Positions 36,198-37,406 of a DNA stretch of 64,000 nucleotides are shown piece after piece. This DNA is from Haloterrigena gelatinilytica (GTDB lineage: Archaea > Halobacteriota > Halobacteria > Halobacteriales > Natrialbaceae): positions 1,798,001 through 1,862,000 of the forward strand of contig NZ_JABUQZ010000001.1 of the NCBI RefSeq assembly GCF_013342145.1. The letters are read 5' to 3'. How positions within the stretch are numbered: the first letter of the stretch is position 1; every line of letters begins with the position of its first letter. The position numbers were made by a program, and so were the translations under genes. A model generated the notes under the pieces. That model had not been told where the DNA came from and ran no database searches. It was given only the letters and a program-made list of their open reading frames with translations.

Positions 36198-37352
36198 TTA
36201 GATCTCGCCGTTGACGATGTCCGCGATACGCTGGCGGTCGAACAGCGTTAGCGACTCGTCTCTCAGCGTCTCGAGTCCGTTCCACTCGCCGAACGAATCG
36301 GGGTAGAACTGTCGCGCCGCGGCCTCGGTCTGGAAGAGGTTGACGATCGGTCCCTGGTAAGAGCCGCCGCCGCGATAGAGTCGGTCGTTCTGCACGGCGC
36401 TCAACTGTTTTCCGGTCGGATCTTCGCGCATCGTCTCCGTTCGGGCCTCGAACTCCTCGGTCGAGACGTGCGTAAGCCCGTACTGGAACACGATCGCGTC
36501 GGGGTCGACCTCCAGCAGCTGTTCGTAGTCCCAGTTGGCGTAACTCCCGTCGATGTGGTCGTCGAAGGCACCCCGCATCTCGAGGTCCCGGTACTGTTTG
36601 TGATTGTTGCCCGACTGGAGCGGGTAGGCGTAGAACGACCCCTTCTCGAAGTCGGAGTTGGCCGAGAGGAGGCCGACTGTGGGCCGTTCGTCGGTCGGCG
36701 GCAGCGTCGACTGGATCGTCGACTGCATCTCGTCGTGGACCGTTCGGTACGCATCGTACCGTTCCGATTCGCGGAACGCGTCGGCCACGATCTCGAACGC
36801 CTCGTAGAGCGAGTAGTAGCGGTAGTCGTGCCACTCGTCGCCGCGTCGCCGGATGTAGTTCCCCAGGAAGGGGGCGACTTGACTACTGATCTCGTCGATG
36901 TCCTCGTCCGTCCAGTCGTCGGAAAGAACGCCGAGCCAGTTCGGATCGACCAGGTGGAGGTCACACTCGAGTTCGTAGAAGACCTCCTTGTCGAACCCGC
37001 TGTCGCCCGCGATCTTCGGGACGTCGAGGGAGACGTCGACGCCCGGCAAGTAGTCGTAGACGAACTCGGGGTAGTTCGACGGGTCCCAGAGTCCCCGTAA
37101 CCCGTCGGCCTTGCCGAGTGCAATTCCCATGTCACCGTACGTGCTGAGGAACGACATCCAGGTCTCCGGAGCCTCGTCGAAGGCGACCTCGCCCATCGGA
37201 TCCATCGTCACCGTGTAGGAGCCATCGGATGCGGCTGTTCCGTCGCCGTCGCCGATACAACCCGCGAGCAGGCCTCCGCCGACGACCGCGCCGCCGTACC
37301 TCATGTAGTTCCGCCGCGTCAGTGCCTCGTCTCCGTTGGCGTCGGTTGCCAT
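36198..37352 (-). CDS. Iron-siderophore-type ABC substrate-binding lipoprotein
   Basis: A 384-residue exported lipoprotein: RRNYMRYGGAVVGGGLLAGC is a Tat signal with lipobox. The mature part has the two-lobe helical-backbone design of class III binding proteins (FepB/FhuD/BtuF): PETWMSFLSTYGDMGIALG, then a long helix region, RPTVGLLSANSDFEKG, and VDPDAIVFQYGLTHVS. Metal-siderophore complexes are the probable ligands. No permease or ATPase adjoins it, so it must share a transporter encoded elsewhere. Two iron-box-like palindromes sit upstream (37358-37371 and 37393-37406). Confidence 0.85.
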   Translation of the reverse strand: MATDANGDEALTRRNYMRYGGAVVGGGLLAGCIGDGDGTAASDGSYTVTMDPMGEVAFDEAPETWMSFLSTYGDMGIALGKADGLRGLWDPSNYPEFVYDYLPGVDVSLDVPKIAGDSGFDKEVFYELECDLHLVDPNWLGVLSDDWTDEDIDEISSQVAPFLGNYIRRRGDEWHDYRYYSLYEAFEIVADAFRESERYDAYRTVHDEMQSTIQSTLPPTDERPTVGLLSANSDFEKGSFYAYPLQSGNNHKQYRDLEMRGAFDDHIDGSYANWDYEQLLEVDPDAIVFQYGLTHVSTEEFEARTETMREDPTGKQLSAVQNDRLYRGGGSYQGPIVNLFQTEAAARQFYPDSFGEWNGLETLRDESLTLFDRQRIADIVNGEI

Positions 37353-37357
37353 GTGGT

Positions 37358-37371
37358 TTCGGCTGGCCTAA
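37358..37371. promoter_or_regulatory. Imperfect iron-box half-palindrome, proximal
   Basis: TTCGGCTGGCCTAA, six bases before the start codon of the siderophore-binding protein, matches the distal site TTAGGCGAGCCTAA at 11 of 14 positions (10 if its reverse strand is compared). Regulator binding here would block transcription start or translation. Confidence 0.5.
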
Positions 37372-37392
37372 AAGGTCTAATACGATTCGGTT

Positions 37393-37406
37393 TTAGGCGA
37401 GCCTAA
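37393..37406. promoter_or_regulatory. Iron-box-like palindrome (DtxR/Idr type), distal
   Basis: TTAGGCGAGCCTAA is a 6+6 base palindrome with a 2-base centre, 41-54 bases upstream of the binding-protein ATG. It resembles half of the DtxR/SirR consensus (TTAGG...CCTAA), which haloarchaeal iron-dependent repressors (Idr) use. Its centre is 35 bases from the proximal site. Confidence 0.65.

Follow-up and report, generated by a model that had tools for sequence, protein, structure and literature searches.

Paired iron-box-like palindromes around the predicted promoter of an orphan siderophore-receptor gene in Haloterrigena gelatinilytica

How is a siderophore-receptor gene controlled when no transporter gene stands beside it, and which transporter could its product serve? 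The question is raised by a predicted lipoprotein gene in the window, the whole 64,000-nt stretch of Haloterrigena gelatinilytica DNA analysed here, which is preceded by two similar palindromes, boxes A and B. We consider it highly probable that the twin boxes are operators of an iron-sensing repressor of the DtxR family (FerR/Idr type) placed around the core promoter of the orphan receptor, which would be made in iron shortage and pass its siderophore to a shared transporter encoded elsewhere.

The locus and its predicted receptor

A preliminary description of this DNA had placed two palindromes, with centres 35 bases apart, just before the start codon, and both positions and spacing are confirmed. 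The features of the locus are as follows.

37393–37406, minus strand: box A, predicted upstream operator; TTAGGCGAGCCTAA in the window, TTAGGCTCGCCTAA on the minus strand; a perfect TTAGG-N4-CCTAA palindrome
37372–37392, minus strand: 21-bp spacer with predicted core promoter; BRE/TATA order as in the consensus of 31 haloarchaeal spacers of 22 bp
37389–37386, minus strand: CGAA, BRE-like, inside the spacer
37382–37376, minus strand: TATTAGA, TATA-like, at −30 to −24 from the ATG
37358–37371, minus strand: box B, predicted downstream operator; TTCGGCTGGCCTAA in the window, TTAGGCCAGCCGAA on the minus strand; one mismatch
36198–37352, minus strand: predicted orphan siderophore-binding lipoprotein, 384 aa; PF01497 (Peripla_BP_2), lipobox LLAGC with Cys32

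Relative to the ATG at 37352, box A covers −54 to −41 and box B −19 to −6, and the gene starts 6 nt past box B. The spacer between them may act as promoter, as judged from its letters; CGAA and TATTAGA are compatible with an archaeal BRE/TATA pair, and the transcript of the gene is probably leaderless. With up to three mismatches allowed, the box pattern has six matches in the whole window, against 6.8 expected by chance; box A has no mismatch, box B one, and the remaining four two or three. Both boxes are identical in the same-genus orthologue L050 (93% identity), and box B is given weight for its spacing and for its full conservation in this nearest orthologue. The divergent surE gene (start 37622) was weighed as a possible target of the two palindromes but not adopted, the nearer of them lying 215 nt off.

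The protein matches PF01497 with E = 1.2e-8 and 35.2 bits against a cut-off of 27.5. Its AlphaFold2 model has a pLDDT of 85.7, with low confidence for residues 1–41, and a Foldseek search of the PDB with this model retrieves class III siderophore-binding proteins at E about 1e-12, namely YfiY with schizokinen (3tny), HtsA, CeuE and FeuA. The identity to these structural matches is only 12–19%, and a sequence search for a PDB relative of the receptor gave none at E ≤ 0.1. By its predicted model, the window lipoprotein has the fold of class III (FhuD/BtuF-type) siderophore-binding proteins, in line with the earlier assignment, which the PF01497 match also bears out. It could instead bind another solute or pair with another partner. 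While the fold is common to the four known proteins and the window receptor, the window gene lacks an adjoining transporter: no permease and ATPase genes are adjacent, and no FecCD gene is found anywhere in the 64,000-nt window, as the preliminary description had held for the immediate neighbourhood.

The receptor has a match at E ≤ 1e-60 in 82 of 121 genomes searched (its own included), and the best matches of 59–93% identity in 11 other genomes were taken as orthologues. In seven of these relatives (L080, L081, L082, L083, L084, L086, and L088), the 19–20 kb stretch around the orthologue contains about 3–11 receptor genes and one FecCD permease, the distance between this permease and the receptor group being 0.4 to about 7 kb. 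In the other four (L079, L085, L087, and L089), the orthologue is an orphan with its own double box, and no other receptor or permease gene is found within the stretch. A double box stands before the orthologue or leads the array in the 11 relatives, save where the stretch ends before the lead gene of the array. Where both are visible, receptor group and permease are often under separate double boxes. The largest groups, of about 8–11 receptor paralogues near a single FecCD permease, are seen at L084:57–12704, L083:5354–14888, and L086:3443–16695. In addition, a near-identity plasmid search found six haloarchaeal plasmids with receptor genes.

These neighbourhoods bear on the alternative that survives best, namely that the gene is iron-regulated but is no accessory to a shared transporter, being either the relic of a receptor array or a surface siderophore holder. 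The orphan state here and in four of the 11 relatives would suit such a role. However, the four orphan orthologues (59–93% identity) have retained both their open frame and a double box, and in seven relatives the orthologue stands beside several receptors and one permease, which makes this alternative unlikely. An accessory receptor sharing a transporter remains the preferred reading, and such sharing is supported by the seven relatives, out of 11, whose orthologue has a permease within the same 19–20 kb.

Box sites across the genome

The genome (4.55 Mb, three contigs) was searched for the boxes. The sequence TTAGGCNNGCCTAA occurs at four places and its reversed control at none. The exact pattern TTAGGNNNNCCTAA (TTAGG-N4-CCTAA) occurs at 15 places, compared with 0.16 expected under a first-order model built from the window. 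When one mismatch is tolerated, the pattern is found at 27 places and the reversed control at 44; one-mismatch sites therefore carry no weight alone.

The surroundings of all 15 exact sites, one of which lies in the window, were examined with genes called by a simple codon-usage script, and by those calls every one of the sites is intergenic. Across the genome, they adjoin mostly iron genes. This association agrees with the previous suggestion of a DtxR/Idr-like operator pattern, for which a genome search had been proposed as a check. An exact site stands in front of six of the eight PF01497 receptors in the genome, and two of the three FecCD permeases over the cut-off lie in site-bearing operons (one more FecCD match falls short of it). 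Exact sites accompany receptor, permease and ATPase genes in L016 and L020, and two receptors flanking a FAD/NAD(P) oxidoreductase in L018. The site in L021 leads a hydroxamate-siderophore synthesis operon composed of aminotransferase, decarboxylase, IucA/IucC-FhuF, and lysine/ornithine monooxygenase genes. Regulators are also found at exact sites, a DtxR-family gene in L019 and a protein carrying a FilR1 domain in L016. Sites with no known iron role nearby lie next to genes for a Macro domain or DUF7331 protein (L017), a methyltransferase or DUF7090 protein (L022), and a DUF7551/7552 or PHP protein (L023).

Among the 13 site-bearing promoters, five have a second box at 34–36 bp, one of which (L018) carries two mismatches in that second box, and one has it at 26 bp. 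The other seven lack a second box even when up to two mismatches are allowed; the pair is thus not needed for every target. Most of the 12 further one-mismatch places were also inspected, and they were used only for pairs and for two dps neighbours. In these two cases, one-mismatch boxes at L017:6786 and L024:2622 precede dps/ferritin-type genes by about 110 and 50 bp. Their position could be due to chance, or could hint at opposite regulation or at a regulator that is not purely repressing.

The double box in Halobacteria and in marine archaea

The arrangement of the two boxes was followed in other genomes with an exact double pattern allowing 6–36 free bases, that is, 31 spacings. It is found in 65 of 101 genomes sampled from the same family and in 127 of 194 genomes (45 of 65 genera) sampled from the class, with none for the reversed control in either sample; 67 of the 194 class genomes lack an exact double site. 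Among the pairs listed (75 in each sample), the centres are 34–36 bp apart in 67 family pairs and 55 class pairs, the two samples overlapping in the own-family genomes and the pairs being related by descent. The 36-bp spacing alone accounts for 48 and 34 of the listed pairs, respectively, and minor groups among them lie near 20–21 and 26–29 bp.

A scan of a collection of 84,980 species with the double pattern restricted to 20–22 free bases yielded at least 117 stretches with 120 pairs. Among the matches listed, the only bacterium is Ruoffia tabacinasalis (L192:4054), a low-GC Gram-positive species; the remaining ones belong to Halobacteria and relatives (including Halorutilus and Actinarchaeum), Poseidoniales/Poseidoniia, Marine Group III, and euryarchaeal bins. 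The first 80 stretches, with 81 pairs, were searched mechanically for genes whose start codon lies no more than 60 nt from one or the other end of the pair. An acceptable ORF was obtained for 69 pairs, 55 haloarchaeal and 14 marine, and for 12 there was none.

In the haloarchaeal promoters, all from named genomes, the start codon lies 4–8 nt past the second box in 40 of 55 cases, the 55 ORFs including probable non-genes (7 with a GTG start, 10 beyond 20 nt). The 31 promoters whose spacer measures 22 bp and whose start lies at 4–10 nt share a spacer consensus, CGRAR at positions 5–9 followed by TTWTAW at positions 13–18. Of the 55 encoded proteins, 23 match PF01497, four aminotransferase III and one FecCD. 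Further Pfam matches are to DUF5059 (6), plastocyanin-type (6), DUF7552 (6), and DUF7551 (5), and other families are matched once or twice each. The proteins with DUF5059 or the plastocyanin-type copper domain, named by BLAST similarity to L093, are those of L093, L097, L161, and L134, plus L091 and L111. A DUF7551/DUF7552 gene stands behind a double box at L023:6515–8604, near a PHP-domain gene, with similar starts in L117, L124, L127, L129, L146, and L165; from their promoters, we propose that these genes are part of the iron regulon.

The same geometry bears on whether both boxes matter in the window. The alternative in which only the perfect box A is functional, with box B and the pairing incidental, would account for the mismatch in box B and for the single-box promoters of the genome. 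However, the nearest orthologue has kept both boxes unchanged, and the spacing peak is far from uniform. Moreover, in 30 loci with 53 receptor genes, a double box stands in front of 17 of the 25 genes that do not immediately follow another receptor gene, compared with one of the 28 internal genes; some of the eight misses are start-mapping or locus-edge cases, for example L068, where the pair lies further upstream. We therefore regard a lone functional box A as improbable and retain the paired operators.

The marine promoters differ in detail. The start lies 16 nt past the second box in 8 of the 14 cases, and by eye it is often preceded by a Shine-Dalgarno-like stretch. In 11 of the 14, a TATA-like stretch begins 2–3 bases past box A in a 20-bp spacer. 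In L131, L135, L143, and L162, the second box is followed by a third, which begins one base past it. Of the 14 marine proteins, the ten scanned all match an iron-protein model (transferrin 5, Fea1 3, FTR1 2).

L105:3159–5273, L108:3950–5029, L109:4364–5413, L138:5980–7035, and L149:3238–4287: transferrin-like lipoproteins behind a double box; PF00405, also PF12974; Poseidoniales or related bins
L102, L135, and L167: Fea1-type low-iron proteins behind double boxes, marine archaea
L131 and L162: FTR1 permeases behind double boxes, marine archaea

The transferrin-like protein of L105 has two lobes. The phosphonate-binding-protein model, which all five transferrin matches also hit, outscores the transferrin model in L105 and L108, ties with it in L109, and is outscored by it in L138 and L149. 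The best PDB match of the L109 protein is 1blf (E = 2.7e-29), and its best 60 rows are lactoferrin, ovotransferrin, serum transferrin and their kin. It retains the stretches SCHTG...SAG..IPMG, DGG, and YYGYSGA-KCL, which we take to be the anion and iron-ligand regions of transferrins; its predicted structure is poor (pLDDT 49). A literature search for archaeal transferrins yielded no report among the matches listed, two papers having matched only through the word "transferring" or through iron in another context. It is an evenly balanced proposal that the box-BRE-TATA-box arrangement at 34–36 bp is one stereotyped archaeal iron switch, common to haloarchaea, where it would serve siderophore receptors and their arrays, and to Poseidoniales and Marine Group III, where it would serve transferrin-like lipoproteins, Fea1, and FTR1; the module would then have persisted while the uptake chemistry around it was replaced entirely.

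Candidate regulators and proposed mechanism

PF01325 has 12 matches in the genome, among which three, at genome places 873436, 1743440, and 2735730, are clear DtxR homologues (E below 1e-13), here termed L029, L030, and L031 without regard to that order. L030 (1743188–1743616) has a match at E ≤ 1e-25 in all 194 class genomes, with matches of only 1e-33 to 1e-39 in five of them that may be paralogues. L029 is composed of 226 residues with HTH, metal-binding, and FeoA domains. L031 is a short homologue of 133 residues, whose metal-binding domain is matched only at E = 0.0027.

L031 is itself preceded by an exact box, and its homologues occur in the receptor-array stretch of four of the 11 relatives. 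At L019:7578–7728, the ATG of a leader frame of 43 codons comes 5 nt after the box, and the stop of this leader overlaps the start of the DtxR gene (L031) in the sequence ATGA, which suggests that leader frame and L031 are translationally coupled. At E ≤ 1e-20, L031 is found in 71 of the 194 class genomes. Double sites are present in 62 of these 71, compared with 65 of the 123 genomes without L031 (Fisher p = 8e-7, kinship ignored). Among the pairs listed, L031 lies 391–454 bp from a double box in nine genomes, which suggests that it is itself a target. L031 was considered as the regulator, but 65 genomes have double sites without it; it is thus more likely a target or co-regulator than the sole binder. 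L030 or L029 is a likelier binder of the boxes than L031.

That the operators belong to a DtxR homologue sensing manganese or zinc rather than iron is the least probable alternative and a very doubtful one: the best solved relative of L029, 5zr4, is named only a metal-dependent regulator, and SloR, ScaR, and MntR, which are manganese regulators, are also matched, but so are the putative iron-dependent repressor 8pvt, IdeR, and DtxR, while the genes at the sites mostly encode siderophore receptors, FecCD permeases, and siderophore-synthesis proteins, joined in marine archaea by transferrin-like, Fea1, and FTR1 proteins, and no manganese/zinc transporter families were found among the proteins scanned.

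Under control by an iron-sensing repressor, the receptor gene is very probably turned on when iron is scarce. When iron is present, the metal-loaded repressor would occupy both boxes, box A just upstream of the BRE/TATA and box B between the TATA and the start of the probably leaderless transcript, and TBP/TFB and RNA polymerase would be blocked. In iron shortage, the repressor would leave and the receptor would be produced. From the lipoprotein, the ferric siderophore would then pass to one of two FecCD/ATPase transporters whose box-controlled operons lie in other parts of the genome. The receptor thus probably serves a transporter encoded elsewhere, and the sharing is further supported by the presence of six box-linked receptors for two box-linked permeases.

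The bacterial DtxR/IdeR operator, a 19-bp TTAGG-type consensus, has the same TTAGG/CCTAA arms. In contrast, two separate 14-bp palindromes, 34–36 bp apart, are placed here around an archaeal TATA box. MDR1 of Archaeoglobus fulgidus is likewise an archaeal DtxR homologue with several operators, located near the start site, and represses by blocking polymerase recruitment; the number of sites and the targets differ from those described here.

Both the iron signal and the receptor surplus were already known in haloarchaea, as excerpts of two papers on Haloferax indicate (PMC11349517, PMC7407949). The former, citing Leyn and Rodionov 2015, describes a ferR regulon signal before all fhu operons of Haloferax volcanii and eleven receptor paralogues for two permeases (PMC11349517, excerpt), a likewise iron-linked signal before siderophore receptors and permeases, with a similar surplus of receptors. 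In iron starvation, 5 of the 11 receptors rise more than 4-fold and one of the two permeases 12.7-fold; however, the siderophore-synthesis protein IucC falls 10-fold, which speaks against a simple picture (same excerpt). According to the excerpted text of PMC7407949, a six-gene siderophore (iuc) transcript is strongly induced at low iron in Haloferax. A link of the double site to HVO_A0467, the most iron-induced H. volcanii protein in the PMC11349517 excerpt, through the box-led CARDB genes of L099 and L140 was dropped; on the L099 contig, an MMPL gene comes no closer than about 4.5 kb, and none was found for L140. A literature search for the motif or the double operator in haloarchaea found neither described among the matches listed; the FerR motif of Leyn and Rodionov 2015 lay outside this comparison, and the geometry is not claimed to be unpublished.

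The window locus is an unexceptional part of the iron regulon of haloarchaea, and the twin geometry and its marine counterpart are more interesting than the single locus. The strict box-TATA-box geometry, and its use before the transferrin-like, Fea1, and FTR1 genes of marine archaea, are possibly new. The double box offers a simple sequence-only rule by which archaeal genomes can be screened for candidate genes of the iron-starvation response, and it suggests a way in which an orphan receptor can be coordinated with transporters elsewhere. If functional, the geometry would represent a compact archaeal repression design. Its marine branch suggests that uncultured marine archaea take up iron by a transferrin-type route.
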